From: Malus domestica
Lineage: Eukaryota > Streptophyta > Magnoliopsida > Rosales > Rosaceae
Direction of reading: 5' to 3'
Length of the DNA: 64,000 bases
Assembly: GCF_042453785.1 (NCBI RefSeq)
Contig: NC_091667.1
Span: 32,418,001-32,482,000, forward strand
Under the pieces are notes generated by a model. That model did no database searches and had not been told where the DNA came from. It saw only the letters and a program-made list of their open reading frames with translations. The translations under genes and the position numbers were made by a program. This document shows, piece by piece, positions 5,138 through 61,707 of the stretch; positions within the stretch are counted from its first letter, which is position 1; the number at the start of each line of letters is the position of its first letter.

Positions 5138-5980
5138 TTACATGACAGTTTTTTCACGCCACTCAATACGACTGGTACATGCTTGATCATCAATGGTGCT
5201 AGTACTGCCTCCAAATGATTCTACTGCAGGATGAATGGCGGGGTTAGGATACTTAAAACCATGAGTTTTGTAATATTTATTGAAGTGAAGATTGCAGAGA
5301 ACTACAAAGAGGAAGGTGACGACGTAGATAGACAAGGCAGCACATTTGAACCATAAAGGAAATGGGATGGAGATGGATATGAAGAAGGCTGTGACCCCAA
5401 AGAAGAGGCCAAGTTGATGGAAAATCGGGGCAATTGTTATCCCAGCGGGACAGTAGTTGAAATGAATAAACTTGCTTACAAAGATACAAGTGAAGACAAG
5501 TAAGACTGAGAATCCAAGAAAGTAAAAGATTACAGGGAGATGGAGCTGGCCGGGGGGACCTTGGAATGGGAGAAATGCTATTCCAATCGCCGCTGTAAAG
5601 CAAAACACTACGATTATTGTTGTCCAATCTAAGTTGTTGTTGTCGTACTTATTGTTAGTCCTCCCGTCTTCAACTTCTTGCCTTGCGGCATCTAGGTCAC
5701 GATCGGAATCGCGATCTCGATTGATGGGACCAATTGTCAGAAGTTTGAGCCTTTGGATTGGCGTTACTGTAACTGCAAGGAGAAAAGGCTTAAAGTACTG
5801 ATCCCAAGCAGTATTAACAACATAACTCATTTTATTCTGCACAAAGGTAGGTAGAGATGGAGATATATCGAGACGTAGAGGTACTTGATGATGATATGGT
5901 TTGTGAGATTTGATGGTTTGAATGGAAGTGGTATTTGAATACTCAGGAAATGGTTTGCATGCAGATATATAGACAGGCAA
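5138..5980 (-). CDS. Uncharacterised four-helix membrane protein, copy A
   Basis: This single-exon frame encodes 280 residues. I do not recognise the family. The N-terminal third is soluble. A charged linker (about 85-115) has an Arg-Asp repeat (RDRDSDRD) and an Asn-rich stretch. Four hydrophobic segments follow at about 119-140, 148-172, 182-205 and 208-232. The C-terminal tail of about 45 residues is polar. There is no clear signal peptide, so the helices would act as anchors. Met51 (MSYVVNTAWDQY) is an alternative start, because the first 50 residues look less conserved in character. A second copy at 17998-18777 is nearly identical, which supports real coding. The region upstream (5980-6290) is GA-rich. 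Function unknown; a plant-specific membrane protein is all that can be said. Confidence 0.7.
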   Translation of the reverse strand: MPVYISACKPFPEYSNTTSIQTIKSHKPYHHQVPLRLDISPSLPTFVQNKMSYVVNTAWDQYFKPFLLAVTVTPIQRLKLLTIGPINRDRDSDRDLDAARQEVEDGRTNNKYDNNNLDWTTIIVVFCFTAAIGIAFLPFQGPPGQLHLPVIFYFLGFSVLLVFTCIFVSKFIHFNYCPAGITIAPIFHQLGLFFGVTAFFISISIPFPLWFKCAALSIYVVTFLFVVLCNLHFNKYYKTHGFKYPNPAIHPAVESFGGSTSTIDDQACTSRIEWREKTVM

Positions 5981-54521: not shown

Positions 54522-55268
54522 ATGTCTAGTATCCTATCTTCTCTTTTCTCGATCTTTTTTCTGTTTCTTTCGATGCATGCATGCGAGGCTCGCTATATCG
54601 GGCTTGGCCCTAAGGGTTTTGGAGCACCATTCCTACCTTTCGGCAAGGTTTGTTAATTTTGTGTTTCAATTTCTTACCAGCCGTTTGATAATCATTTCAT
54701 TTTTAATTTTACTATTTTTTTTTAAAACGAAAAACTTGTTTGGTAATGAAAACCAAAAACTAGAATTTTGGAAGATGTTCAAATTTTGGTTTGATTTCGT
54801 TTTTTTGTTTTCAAATATTTGAAAACTAAAAAATTGTTTGCTGCAGTGCAGTCACTAAATTAAAACTAAATGATTATTAAACGAGCCTTTTACGCTAAAC
54901 TAATCTATGAACGTTCACAAACTAATGCATGTAGGTATTTGAAACTGTTAAAATTTCAGGGTCTGTTACTTTTGGAGAAGTTTAAAACACTTGGAATGGA
55001 TTCAAGTAAAGGATTCGTTATGAAGGAATATGACGCAGCTGAAAAGGGTCATGGTGGTGCAATCACTAGTACTACGACTCCTGTAAAGGAAGTGAAGTGC
55101 ACTAGCAGAGGACACAAATCAGGTGTTGTACCAGCTACTAAGCCTCTTGTTTCAGTTTCTTGGTCTGTGCCACGCAAGATTAATCGCGTCAAGAACCATG
55201 AAAAAACTAGTGCTGGGATTTACTCAGATTATTCGAGATCAAGAACACGTCCTCCATCCCATAACTGA
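54522..55268 (+). CDS. GOLVEN/RGF/CLEL secreted peptide precursor 1
   Basis: Two exons (54522-54647 and 54960-55268, phase 0) join to 144 residues. The N-terminus MSSILSSLFSIFFLFLSMHA is a clear signal peptide with a likely cut after HACEA. The variable middle is Lys/Ser/Thr-rich. The extreme C-terminus is DYSRSRTRPPSHN, matching the root meristem growth factor/GOLVEN/CLE-like motif: invariant Asp-Tyr (the tyrosine sulfation site), Pro-Pro near the end, and terminal His-Asn. In this family the 13-14-residue peptide is cleaved, sulfated, proline-hydroxylated and secreted, then perceived by LRR receptor kinases (RGFR/RGI) to control root meristem and gravitropism. The start at 54522 is preferred over 54459 because it gives a typical signal peptide. 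A second member lies about 200 bp downstream. Confidence 0.88.
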
Positions 55269-55465
55269 GCTTAAATTATTTATGTAGTAGCATCTTTTAT
55301 CCTCCTCCATTTATAAATACGAGTATATACATCTCCAAGGATCACTTTCTATTCCTGTGTATCTATACCTTGCTGAGATCTCCAGTTTTGATCATAAACC
55401 TTAGATATTAACCAATCGATATATTATATGTGATCGGTCTTCTTCTTGTCATTTCATTGATAGGG

Positions 55466-56148
55466 ATGGAACCAGCCGGAAGTGAGATTGTAGAGTCTTC
55501 TGATCATCACATGGTGGGTTTGCTTAAAACAACAAGTCCTACTACTAAAAAGGTAATCAAATTCAACATGTAGGAGTCTTACTACTTAATTGGTTTTATT
55601 TTTCTAGCTAGATGTGGTGGATCGAGGAGCATATGGGACCTCATCAGGATCAATCTTTTTCTTTATGTCGAATCGTGGAGGGTGACAATGGAAGATATGT
55701 TGTCTGTATGCTTGAATTGTCGAATGTGCGAGTTGCAATTAATTAATTGGGTGTCAGGATCAGAAATTGAAAAAAGTTGAGTTTCCAACCTAACATCAAT
55801 TGGTTATATGAGGAGTGGTCCGCATCCTTATAAACACATGCAAAGTCTCTTAATTCTCCGATTTATGAAATTCACACTCTCAACAATCATCTTATGCATG
55901 TAACCACAAGAAAAATGAACGGAATAAGTAATGAGTCAGAAGAGAGAAAGATCAAAGTTATTTATATGTAGATTAACGCGTTTTGTATGCATATGTTGTA
56001 TTTGTATATGTAGGAAGCAAGGAGGAGAGCTCTATCTGGTAAAGAAGCCGTAAATTACAACAGTGATGACAAAGTAGAAGATAATGTGGTGCATACAGAT
56101 TACAACCCGCCACATTCGACACCACCCATTCACAACAGAAAAAGTTAA
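55466..56148 (+). CDS. GOLVEN/RGF/CLEL-like peptide gene 2, no visible signal peptide
   Basis: Two segments (55466-55552 and 56014-56148, GT-AG, phase 0) join to 73 residues. The C-terminus DYNPPHSTPPIHN plus RKS strongly matches the GLV1/GLV2 type, whose precursors end in PPIHN with a short extra tail, and the preceding EARRRALSGKEAV resembles their RRRAL-G-E stretch. The N-terminus starting MEPAGSEIVESSDHH is polar and lacks a signal peptide. An AG acceptor (TGATAG) immediately precedes it, so this may be an internal exon. Joining the upstream gene's signal exon to it puts the frame out of phase, so I see no source of secretion signal. It could be a duplicate that lost exon 1, or it could use an exon I cannot identify. 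A copia element lies 8 bp after the stop. Confidence 0.65.
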
Positions 56149-56156
56149 TTACCAAG

Positions 56157-56463
56157 TGTAAAGCTATAGACAATCAAGATCAATCCAGCGATAAAAAAGA
56201 TGCCACTTGTTAGATGCTACTTGTCAAGAGATTAGCTTATAAGAGTTGTTAGTTGGTTAAGAATCAGTTTGCTTACTGTGTAAGGAATGTAACTAGTCTA
56301 AATAGGAAATCCATGTATCCATTGAGTGTGTGAAGAAATAATATCAGTGAAATACTCTCTCATTCCCTTCGATCTCCCTTTCTCTCTCTGGATTATGGGC
56401 TTACAACTTCTCTCTTTAAAACACCATTGTTGATCTTCAAGCTCCAGACTGCTCAATTCAACA
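56157..56463 (+). repeat. 5' LTR of the copia element
   Basis: This 307-bp repeat begins TGTAAAGC and ends TTCAACA. It contains CTAAATAGG, a degraded TATA-type motif where LTR2 has TATAAATAGG. Confidence 0.92.
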
Positions 56464-56786
56464 TGGTATCCTCACTGGGAAAGGTTTCTTCTCTCCGAAC
56501 CTGATCGTCTCTGCTTCCGAGTTCATCCTTGTAATCACTATGGTATGCGATTCATCATCTCCATTGATAAGAAAAATTGTATGAAATTTAATTGATCTCG
56601 ACTTTTGATCTTTGCGCATCAGATGTTTTTTGAAATATATGTGCCAATTCTTATGTGATAATCTTCTCTGCAAAGTTGTGTTCGTTCTTTTCTTCAAGAA
56701 CAAGAATCAAGAAAGTTCTTCAAAACCCTAATTTCTACAAGAAATCTTCTCTGATCTTCTTTTCTGCTTACAAAATTTGAGTCAAC

Positions 56787-58050
56787 ATGGTGACTGCTGC
56801 ACAACTACAAATTGTGCAATCTCCAATCACGAGCTTAATTCCTAATGTATCTACTTTTGTGACTGTCAAACTAGATGATATGAATTACTTAGTCTGGCAT
56901 TACCAAATGCAATTACTTCTTGAAAGCCATGGAATTCCTAGTTTTGTGGATGGTTCTCAAAAATGTCCATCTCGTTTTGTTGATAATTATGATGTTGAGG
57001 GTATAGAAACTGAAGCATATCAAATCTGGAAAATGCATGATCGTGCTGTAATGCAACTTATTATTACAACTCTATCTGTTGCTAGTATGTCTGGTATCAT
57101 TGGCTGCACCAATGCACGTGAAATGTGGATGAATCTTAAAGATCGTTTTTCAACTGTTACAAAAACCAGTATCTTTCAACTGAAAACTGAGCTGCAGAAT
57201 ATTAAAAAAGGGTCTGAATCAATCTCTCAGTATCTGCAAAGGGTTAAGGATGCCCGTGATCATTTGGTTGCTCCTGGAGTTCCATTTGATGATGATGATG
57301 ATATTGTCATTATAGCTTTTAAGGGTCTGCCATCGGAGCACAATACTTTCAGAACATTAATTAGAGGGATAGACAATGTTATTTCTCTTAAAGACTTTCG
57401 AGCTCAGTTACTTGCAAAGGAAGCCACACTTGAAAATTCTCAGTTGACTGGTTTTTTTTGTGCCTGCTATGCTAGCTCAAGGCAATAATTCCAAAGGAAA
57501 GGGTCTGTTACTTGCAGATAGTTCGTCAAATTTGACTGATTCTCACAATTCATCATCTCAGTACCACACTGGTAGTTCATCATATTCCAATGGTAATTTT
57601 GGAGGCTTTAATAATGGTGGTCCTACTTTCAACTTTGAAGGATACAGTAATGAGGGCAATGCTTACAATTCTAGAGGATATAGGGGTTCTAATTTCAGAG
57701 GAAGAAATAGGGGCAGCAACAACTATGGCAGTTCAATGTTCTCTGGTAATAACTTCAATACCAGTCCTGGTATTCTTGTACCTGCAAGACCCCATGTCTC
57801 TACATGCTTTGAGCATGACAATGATGTGCCAACCTGTCAAATTTGCAACAAGAGATGTCATATTGCTTCTGATTGTTTTCAGAGACACTCTTCCACCACA
57901 ATTTCTTCTTATCCTATGCAATGCCAAATTTGTTGGAAATTTGGGCATTATGCCATACAATGCTATCATAGGGCAAATTTCTCATATCAAGGCAGGTCAC
58001 CCTCATCAACTCTCTCTGCCATGCATGTACCAACCTTCTGCTCCACATGA
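56787..58050 (+). pseudogene. copia gag (frameshifted)
   Basis: The first open part (56787-57488) is a UBN2/Retrotran_gag-type capsid: LDDMNYLVWHYQMQLLLESH, AREMWMNLKDRFS, SISQYLQRVKDARDHL. A frameshift in the T run near 57455 moves it to the next frame (57460-58050), an Asn/Gly/Ser-rich linker followed by two zinc knuckles, CQICNKRCHIASDC (Cys in place of the usual Gly) and CQICWKFGHYAIQC. Confidence 0.88.
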
Positions 58051-61000
58051 GCAATTCTGGGTAGCTGATACTAGTGCAACTTCCCATATGACATCAGACT
58101 TGGCAAATCTAAATCTGGCAACTTCTTTCACAGGCAATGACACTATAACCACAACTAGTGGTTTAGGTTTGCCAATATCTCATATTGGTTCTTCAATTTT
58201 AAAAGCTCCTAAATGTGCTTTTGAATTGAAAGAAATATTGCATATTCCCAAGTTATCTCAACACTTATTAGTCTATCAGCTATGCAAAGACAATCATTGT
58301 AGGTTTATATGTGATGAGTTTTGTTTTTGGATTCAGGACAATATCACAGGGATAATACTTCTCCAAGGACTATGTAGAGCTGGATTGTACCCAATTCCAT
58401 TCCAAATACCTCCATACTTTGTAAAGCAAGCATATAAAACATCTCACTTACCTTCACAACATCACTGCTTTATTAGTCATCAAGTCAATTCATCTCTGTG
58501 ACACAACAGATTAGGCCATCATTCTAATGCTGTTGCTGCAAGAATATTAAACCAATCTCAGGTTCATTTGTCAATAGATCAATCTAGGCATGTATGTGTT
58601 TCTTGTTTAGAAGGAAAAATCACAAAATTACCATTTTCTTTTCCTGCCAATAAGACGGTAAAACCCCTAGAAGTCATTCACAGTGATGTGTGGGGACCTT
58701 CTCTTACATTGTCAATTGAGGGTTACAAATTCTATGTTACTTTCATAGATGAATGTACCAGGTTTACTTCGATATTTCCATTAAGGTGTTTCAAACATTT
58801 GTGCAGTTTCATGCTTTCTTACTTACTCAATTTTCAACTACAATTAAAATTTTCCAAAGTGATGGTGGTGGTGAGTATTACAGCAATAACTTCAAACAGT
58901 TTTTACTTAACCAAGGCATCATACATCATAAATCTTGCCCTCATACTCTTGAACAAAATGGCCTTGCTGAGAGAAAGCATAGGCACATTATTGAACCTGC
59001 TTTAACACTTTTGCATACTTCCAAACTACCTTCAAAGTTCTAGTTTCACGTTTGTGCTACTTCATTATACTTAATCAATAGAATGCCATGCACTACCTTG
59101 TCCATGAAATCTTCATATACTTGTCTGTTTGGCACAACTCCTATTTTAACACATTTAAAAACCTTTGGTTGCAACTGCTTTCCTTTGTTAAAACCATACA
59201 TTACAAACAAACTTCAACAAAAACACTGCACAATGTATTTTCTTGGGACATGCAAGACAATACAAAGGCTACATTTGTTTCTAACCACACACATGGAGAT
59301 TTTATGTGTCTAGACATGTTCTCTTTGATGAGAATACCTTTTCTTACATAAATTTAGTCTCCAAACCAGTACTATCACCATCTATGTCACAACACACTCA
59401 TACTCCAGTTATTCATTTAGTTACACACACTAATATTGTTGTTTCACAACCTCAATCATCTCCATCACTATCATTGTCACAGATACTTTATTCATCATCA
59501 TCATCTGTGTCATCAAAATCATCAACCCCTAGAGCCTTAGAGTATTTCAGTGAACCCACTAGAGCTTCAAAGTCTTTGAATGTCCCAACTTCAGCTCTAG
59601 AGTTGTTCAATAACATGCCAATCCCCACTTCCTCATCTAGTGCTTCAGAGTTTTTGTCTACATCTCCAAAATCTACAACAACTACACAGTCCCACATCCC
59701 TGTGGATCCTGATTTTCAACCAGAAAATCTCACAGTTGTTCTTCTAGTACCTACAATTAGTCTTCATCCAATTCAGACTAGATTTAAAAGTGAGATTGTT
59801 AAGAAGAAAGCTTTTTCAACCACTGTACATACTTCTGAAAGTTCAACTATTAAGCCAACTACCTGCAAAGTTGCTAGTAAAGTTCCAGAATGGCAAGCAG
59901 CAATGCAAGATGACATCAGTGCTCTACATACTAAACAAACTTGGGATCTTGTTCCTCTTCCAAGTGGTAAAAATCTAGTTGGTTGTAAGTGGTGTATAAA
60001 GTCAAGAAGAATCTAGATGGATCCATTTCTAGGTACAAGGAAGATTAGTTGCCAAGAGATATAGTCAAGAAGAGGGGATTGATTATAATGAGACTTTTAG
60101 ACCAGTGGTCAAACCAACCACAGTGAGGTTTATTCTTGCATTTACAGCTCAGTGTAATTGGAGTTTGAGACAATTGGATGACACAAAATGCATTCTTGCA
60201 TGGAGAGTTGAACGAAGAAGTATATATGGCTCAACCTCTAGGTTTTTTCAGTCTTATTCATCCTTCTCACTTTGTTTGCAAGCTAAAAAAGTCATTGTAT
60301 GATTTAAAACAGGCTTCAAGAGTTTGGAATGAGAAGTTTACTAATTTTTTTACCAGGTTTGGGGTTTAAACAATCACTTGCATATCCTTCTTTAGTTGTC
60401 AAACACACTGATCTTGGTATTGTAGTGTTGTTATTATATGTTGATGATATAATCTTAATTGGAAGCAGTTCTAGTGATATATCTGCAGTGATCTTGGCTT
60501 TAACTCAATAATTCGATATGAAGGACTTGGGACATCTTAATTACTTTCTGGGATTACAGATTCAATATCAATCTTTTGGTTTGTTTGTTTTTCAGACAAA
60601 GTATATCAAGGATTTATTGGCCAAAGTTGATATGCAAAATGCAAAAGCATGTGCTACTCCTTGTCTTCCATCTCACAGATTACTCAAGGAAGAAGGCAAA
60701 CTGTATCACAGTCCAAAACAATACAGAAGTATAGTGGGTGCATTGCAGTATTTGACATTCACTAAACTAGATATTGCTTTTGTAGTAAATTAGTGCTGTC
60801 AATTCATGCATTCTCCTATGGATTCACATGTAATTGCAGTCAAACGAATTCTTCGATATCGTAGTGGTACTATTGACTATGGCATAAATTTTCAGCCTGG
60901 AAAGTTGTCTTTACAAGCATATAGTGATGCTGATTAGGCAGGAGATCCCAATGATAAGAGATCCACTTCTGGTTATATTGTTGATCTAGGCTCTAGTCCC

Positions 61001-61300
61001 ATTTCATGGCTTCCAAGAAACAATACACATTTTCTCGGTCTTCCACTGAAGCAAAATATAAGGCTTTGGCTATAACTGCTACATAATTGGCATGGATAAG
61101 ACAACTTCTATGTGACTTACAAGTTCCCTTATATACTCCTCCATTGATGTACTGTGATAATATATCTGCTATAGTCTTGTCTTCTAATCTAGTTTTTCAT
61201 TCGAGGGTTAAGCACATTGAAATATACTATCACTTTGTCCGAAAACGAGTGATTCAAGGAGATTTGGCAGTGCAGCATGTGTCTTCCAAAGAATAATTTG
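58050..61300 (+). pseudogene. copia pol (protease, integrase, RT, RNase H), degenerate
   Basis: Domains are recognisable but split over all frames. The protease site reads ADTSATSHM (Gly of the D-S/T-G-A motif lost). Integrase shows the CVSCLEGK zinc region, HSDVWGP, SDGGGEY and LAERKHRH (D-D-E residues present). RT retains the YVDDIILIGS catalytic box near 60440. RNase H shows DNISAIVLSSN and RVKHIEIYYHFVRKRV. Many in-frame stops (for example at 58499-58501, 60016 and 60789) rule out activity. Confidence 0.9.
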
Positions 61301-61395
61301 CTAATATTCTCACCAAAGGTCTTTCGATTTCCTTGTTTCAGCATCATTGTTCCAATCTCATGCTTGGTTATACAAAATATGTGATTGAGGGGGGA

Positions 61396-61707
61396 TCTAA
61401 AGCTATAGACAGTCAAGATCAATCCAGCGATCAAGAAGAAGCCACTTGTCAAGAGATTAGCTGATAAGAGTTGTTGGTTTGTTAAGAATCAGTTAGTTTT
61501 GTTAAGAATCAGTTTGCTTACTGTGTAAGGAATGTAACTAGTATAAATAGGAAATCCTTGTATCCATTGAGTGTGTGAAGAAATAATATCAGTGAAATAC
61601 TGTCTCATTCTCTTCGATCTCCCTTTCTCTCTCTAGATTATGTGCTTACAACTTCTCTCTCTAAAACACCATTGTTGATCTTCAAGCTCCAGCTGCTCAA
61701 TTCAACA
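61396..61707 (+). repeat. 3' LTR of the copia element
   Basis: This 312-bp partner of the 5' LTR has an intact TATAAATAGG and ends TTCAACA before the CCAAG target duplication. Confidence 0.92.

Follow-up and report, generated by a model that had tools for sequence, protein, structure and literature searches.

Near the end of the window, a 64,000-nucleotide stretch of the Malus domestica genome (contig NC_091667.1; C7:32418001-32482000 in the 651 Mb, 19-contig genome that we searched), lies what its sequence suggests is probably a single RGF/GLV/CLEL gene in which one signal exon serves two mutually exclusive ends, each encoding a different peptide. A preliminary description had read the locus as two tandem genes on the same strand. 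Its exons and peptides are real, yet its two-gene model has become doubtful, as the second unit starts from an ATG without a signal peptide. Nor does the second gene look independent: the exon 3 acceptor at 55464 is in phase 1 and fits a donor within exon 2 of the supposed first gene. The features, numbered from the first base of the window, are as follows.

54522..54647, + strand: exon 1, predicted shared signal-peptide exon, MSSILSSLFSIFFLFLSMHACEARYIGLGPKGFGAPFLPFGK; phase-0 end at AAG|GTTTGT
54960..55268, + strand: exon 2, first (H-like) last exon, with DYSRSRTRPPSHN and a stop at its end
55122..55123, + strand: proposed internal donor CAG|GTGTTG in exon 2, phase 1; same in the C1 copy
55227..55265, + strand: predicted mature 13-mer DYSRSRTRPPSHN
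55464..55552, + strand: exon 3, small and internal, with acceptor ATTGATAG|GG; enters in phase 1 and leaves in phase 0; TTSPTTKK end
56014..56148, + strand: exon 4, second (GLV1/2-like, R-like) last exon, with DYNPPHSTPPIHNRKS and a stop at its end
56020..56034, + strand: RRRAL, matching in sequence the second SBT6.1 cleavage site of AtGLV1
56098..56136, + strand: predicted mature 13-mer DYNPPHSTPPIHN
56157..61707, + strand: Copia-type long terminal repeat (LTR) retrotransposon with CCAAG flanks; absent at the matching place in C1

Signal exon, conservation and family of the two ends

A hydropathy rule was run on every ATG frame upstream of the R-like exon, and over 54000-56148 in C7 it recognizes exon 1 as the sole signal-peptide-like frame. 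By the same rule the second unit by itself has no signal peptide, and no signal-like ATG frame was found in C7 between 55268 and 56014. In the duplicate locus on contig C1, the rule gives exon 1 and one further frame, at 5532, that is not shared with C7. A signal exon proper to the second unit was also sought within 55268-55464, and the rule gave none. A precursor holding both peptides was discarded because the exon 2 stop separates them. Joining exon 1 directly to exon 3 runs into an early stop in either copy, C7 or C1, exon 1 ending in phase 0 and exon 3 beginning in phase 1.

The C1 duplicate was found by a DNA search of the genome that returned 43 matches, the window itself included. It covers the unit in two pieces at 78% identity. 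Among aligned bases, exons 1 to 4 are identical at 113/126, 285/309, 78/86 and 130/135 positions, compared with 510/653 across the pooled introns (Fisher p = 0.001, 1e-8, 0.003 and 2e-8, respectively), and the conservation of the exons in C1 is beyond chance. The only exon indels noted in C1 relative to C7, 45 nucleotides gained in exon 2 and three lost in exon 3, are multiples of three, and the splice dinucleotides of all four exons are retained. The two 13-mers reported earlier, DYSRSRTRPPSHN and DYNPPHSTPPIHN(RKS), are thus encoded where they had been placed, on exons whose splice sites are conserved in C1; the second is identical in both copies and the first reads DYSRPRTRPPSHN in C1. For exon 4, the ratio of nonsynonymous to synonymous change (dN/dS) between C7 and C1 is 0.17, from small counts (2.0 nonsynonymous and 3.0 synonymous changes).

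Judged from sequence, both units are RGF/GLV/CLEL-type coding sequence. The resemblance had been proposed from a DY..PP..HN motif, which we see as well, and D1, Y2, P10 and N13, the criterion for a C-terminal 13-mer of the family in PMC8329595, are present in both peptides of both copies. The second product matched the Pfam GLV1-2 model (PF21529) at E = 2.4e-5 and 25.6 bits, under the curated cut-off of 28.1, and the first product had no Pfam match with E as high as 10. The spliced forms scored 22.1 and 22.5 bits against PF21529, both likewise under the cut-off; for scale, a C4 gene encoding DYAQPHRKPPIHN scores 26.0 bits with its signal exon joined and 28.9 as an exon. The exon 2 precursor terminates with the peptide itself, as group H requires, and its exon context matches that of an H8 gene pair on C7 and C2, while position 8 is arginine where the group H marker is histidine. 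The exon 4 peptide has HST at its centre where group R carries R/K. Since these strict group markers are absent and the Pfam scores stay under the cut-off, the labels H-like and R-like rest on motif and exon context.

The description of the second peptide as GLV1/2-like agrees with its RRRAL site and with the sub-threshold Pfam match. RRRAL is the second SBT6.1 site in AtGLV1 (PMC4983112), and that site is required for CLEL6 function (PMC7162652); no RRxL site occurs in the product of exons 1 and 2. The exon 4 peptide is followed by a three-residue C-terminal extension, RKS in C7 and RKT in C1. As for the first peptide, its basic core SRSRTR, described as unusual, is present in C7; C1 reads SRPRTR, one residue away (S5 for P5). 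Because position 5 is a highly conserved proline among Arabidopsis RGFs (PMC8329595), SRSRTR is probably a single derived change.

Other matches of the DNA search were three fragments of the exon 2 end at 89-90% identity and short hits, most of which fell in an intron 3 repeat or in the LTR; a motif search of the genome DNA gave no match. The fragments (L022 on C4, L023 on C2, L024 on C14) are dispersed pieces of 346-360 bp that comprise the exon 2 end and flank. They are about 97% identical to the C1 copy, so a mobile element probably took them from there. The frame of the C14 fragment contains a stop, and the peptide ends are altered in those on C4 and C2. In intron 3, around 55765-55895, some 80-130 bases find matches of 73-86% identity on many contigs, and this stretch is therefore probably a short dispersed repeat.

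A second pair of loci with H-like and R-like exons

A PF21529 search of the genome gave 16 matches, nine of them above the cut-off, and 11 R-type peptide loci were recognized. Four of the 11, on C7, C1, C15 and C2, have an H-like peptide exon with its stop upstream of the R-type one, on the same strand; the other seven showed a single peptide motif in a motif scan of 6-7 kb. The C15 and C2 loci form a second pair.

L041 2502-3885 and L042 2741-4194, both reverse complement: second pair of H and R peptide exons (C15/C2), with one signal exon

Here the order is signal exon, exon 2, H-like exon, small exon and R exon. The H-like exon ends in DYCGPRHHRPKHH in C15 and DYCGPSHHRPKHH in C2 (pattern DYCGP[RS]HHRPKHH), the R exon in DYSPAKKKPPIHN and DYSPARRKPPIHN, respectively (pattern DYSPA[KR][KR]KPPIHN), and the small exon in TSP..TT.K. 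Within the H exon the best donor is CAG|GTACCT, in phase 1 and the same in both copies, and both the H and the R forms are open in both copies. The hydropathy rule gives the signal exon only in C15, and in C2 the signal exon and three frames not shared with the partner copy; overall, among the 13 loci scanned, it identifies the signal-like exon in 12, the exception being the locus on C14.

We scanned the interval from the H stop to the R exon for phase-1 exons. One acceptor per locus passed in all four loci, and in each case it is that of the small exon; in C7, it is 55464, the sole acceptor between the H stop and exon 4. No acceptor passed on the opposite strand, and any acceptor was obtained in 25, 33, 14 and 9 of 300 shuffles for the four loci. 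As read from genomic data, a single signal exon in frame with two peptide exons is present in two locus pairs, four loci in total.

Two further genes have parts of this arrangement. The C4 gene encoding DYAQPHRKPPIHN (L043 2446-5178) has a signal exon that resembles that of the window gene (LCLSMHAC). Between that exon and the peptide exon it also holds an open exon-like stretch after GTGCAG, with a phase-1 CAG|GT and no peptide motif at its end, which is possibly a decayed H arm. The other is a pair of H-only genes.

C7:13802649 and C2:21329765 (L059, L060): H-only RGF pair, DYSPPKTHPPSHN

In this pair, the best internal GT is also a phase-1 CAG|GT. This site, splitting a Gly codon, is the best-scoring GT in the C7/C1 pair, the C15/C2 pair, the C7/C2 H-only pair and the C4 H-like stretch.

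Routes to the second end and alternative readings

Under the one-gene reading, exon 2 would be read through to its stop and polyadenylated there, and the resulting precursor of 144 residues (exons 1 and 2) would release DY(SO3)SRSRTRPPSHN. Alternatively, the donor at 55122/55123 would be used, cutting exon 2 short before its peptide; the shortened exon would be joined to exon 3 (55464-55552) and then to exon 4 (56014-56148), and a 170-residue precursor with RRRAL would release DY(SO3)NPPHSTPPIHN. We infer the splice choice, secretion, SBT6.1 cleavage, tyrosine sulfation and binding to RGI-type receptors, with sulfation and final trimming presumed by analogy with the family. CAG|GTGTTG at this donor is the best-scoring GT of exon 2 in C7, in phase 1, and the acceptor at 55464 reads GG|ATG, in phase 1 and conserved in C1. 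A form made of exon 1, exon 2 truncated at 55122 and exons 3 and 4 keeps an open frame in C7, where it has 170 residues, and in C1.

Several points weigh against this reading. The locus is known here from genome sequence and duplicate loci, and the donors were scored with an untrained matrix. By that matrix CAG|GTGTTG is only a modest donor, and when the codons of exon 2 are shuffled, 1354 of 2000 shuffles hold a phase-1 GT as good. Because of this frequency the internal donor is not significant on its own, and the case rests on the combination. The likeness of the exon 3 peptide across the pairs is weak (97, 189, 70 and 23 of 2000 shuffles were as good), the search for a matching small exon gave none in C4, and dN/dS is 1.04 for exon 1, 0.76 for exon 2 and 1.27 for exon 3, again from small counts. 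There are also other ways to the second end. Exon 1 can be joined directly to exon 4 in frame, giving 86 residues, and in C15/C2 the signal exon can likewise be joined in frame to the small exon, giving a shorter R form. A donor after 55005 is in frame too; we rejected it on its scores of 1.24 in C7 and -0.74 in C1. The exact route to exon 4 is thus less certain.

The direct join deserves separate mention as a variant of the one-gene reading, with which it overlaps: if there is one gene, exon 1 may skip straight to exon 4, exon 3 being a side product or frame-breaking, a route we regard as possible though clearly the less favoured. Exons 1 and 4 are both in phase 0 and their join is open, the C4 gene encoding DYAQPHRKPPIHN also joins a similar signal exon in frame to a phase-0 last exon, and the early stop of the exon 1 to exon 3 join is found in both copies. 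This route, however, leaves a conserved exon 3 with matching phases unexplained, and in C15/C2 a signal exon in phase 1 would meet an R exon in phase 0, out of frame.

That the locus holds two separate tandem genes we consider unlikely. The second would start from ATG 55466 and depend on unrecognized or unconventional secretion or on an unseen first exon. Its frame as first read, from that ATG to 55552 and through 56014-56148, is open and conserved, and in C1 it continues farther upstream as far as ATG ATG, where the translation MMGRLLVISLIGMEHAG includes a short hydrophobic run. Tandem RGF duplicates have been reported in Arabidopsis, poplar, Medicago and soybean (PMC8708909). However, C7 lacks both this in-frame upstream ATG and a counterpart of the C1 frame at 5532, in addition to having no signal-like frame between the exon 2 stop and exon 4, and the bases before 55464 look like a polypyrimidine tract and acceptor, 25 of 26 being identical in C1. 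If there is instead one gene, annotation may list such loci as tandem genes, one of them without a signal peptide.

The retrotransposon bears on the last alternative. It begins 8 bases past the exon 4 stop codon in C7, disrupting the 3' untranslated region (UTR) of this exon, and the second form in C7 would therefore have to take its poly(A) signal from the LTR. Its gag matches PF14223 at 3.7e-20. Its LTRs are identical at 278 of 311 positions, about 11% different, and the insertion is therefore not recent. That exons 3 and 4 are what is left of a GLV gene in decay, unexpressed in the C7 copy with its 3' UTR hit by the element, would fit this position, the lack of an own signal exon and the dN/dS of exon 3, but is improbable given that exon 4 has the highest identity among the four exons and introns compared, a 13-mer identical in C1, a low dN/dS and a frame still intact after an old insertion.

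Comparison with known systems

A literature search for both 13-mers and their tails found no paper, and among the titles and abstract openings listed by our searches we recognized none on an RGF gene of an angiosperm that has alternative exons for two peptides; the part of a peach paper available to us (PMC5641559) holds nothing on exon structure. Fang 2021 reports a typical signal peptide in 158 of 203 RGFs, and some of those without one may be mis-modelled second ends.

The exon 4 product resembles AtGLV1/RGF6/CLEL6, with which it shares RRRAL, a DY..P...PPIHN end and a short C-terminal extension. AtGLV1 has 86 residues, as does the product of the exon 1 to exon 4 join; the centre of its peptide DYPQPHRKPPIHNE is HRK, whereas that of the exon 4 peptide is HST. 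The exon 1 and exon 2 part resembles the H-only pair encoding DYSPPKTHPPSHN, which has two exons, a phase-0 junction and an SVSW.VPR stretch ahead of the peptide, but in which no convincing second peptide motif was found in the 4.2-4.7 kb fetched downstream.

The closest precedents for the whole arrangement come from conifers. Starting from expressed sequence tags (ESTs) in spruce, Strabala 2014 (PMC4016512) described a donor, AG^GTA, lying midway along a terminal CLEL exon and leading to an exon with a different CLEL peptide, and mentioned that CLEL splicing in Arabidopsis leaves the peptide unchanged (data not shown). The Picea genes CLEL14/CLEL22, CLEL18/23/24, CLEL15/25 and CLEL20/26, as modelled there, have one 5' part and two last exons with different CLEL peptides, with a donor within the first last exon and the other peptide on a downstream exon. 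Their last exons are spaced by about 1 kb, compared with 745 bases from the exon 2 stop to exon 4 here, and the conifer models are partly EST-based, whereas our evidence is genomic, from duplicate loci of a flowering plant.

Furumizu and Sawa 2021 (PMC8329595) recognized pairs of H and R peptides with a shared N-terminus in gymnosperms only, and asked how frequent they are elsewhere. If our reading is true, the choice of hormone by splicing in a flowering plant makes the question of paired H/R precursors beyond gymnosperms directly testable. H-type peptides overall bind one receptor tighter than R-type peptides in vitro (data cited by PMC8329595). A more speculative possibility is that a splice switch between two RGF-type hormones goes back to the ancestor of seed plants and is still operating in flowering plants, that H-only and R-only genes each lost one arm, and that the phase-1 CAG|GT marks the old switch. 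Like the group H/group R RGF pairs of gymnosperms (PMC8329595), the window gene would set an H-side and an R-side peptide on one N-terminus; unlike them, neither of its 13-mers has the exact group marker, H8 or the central R/K.
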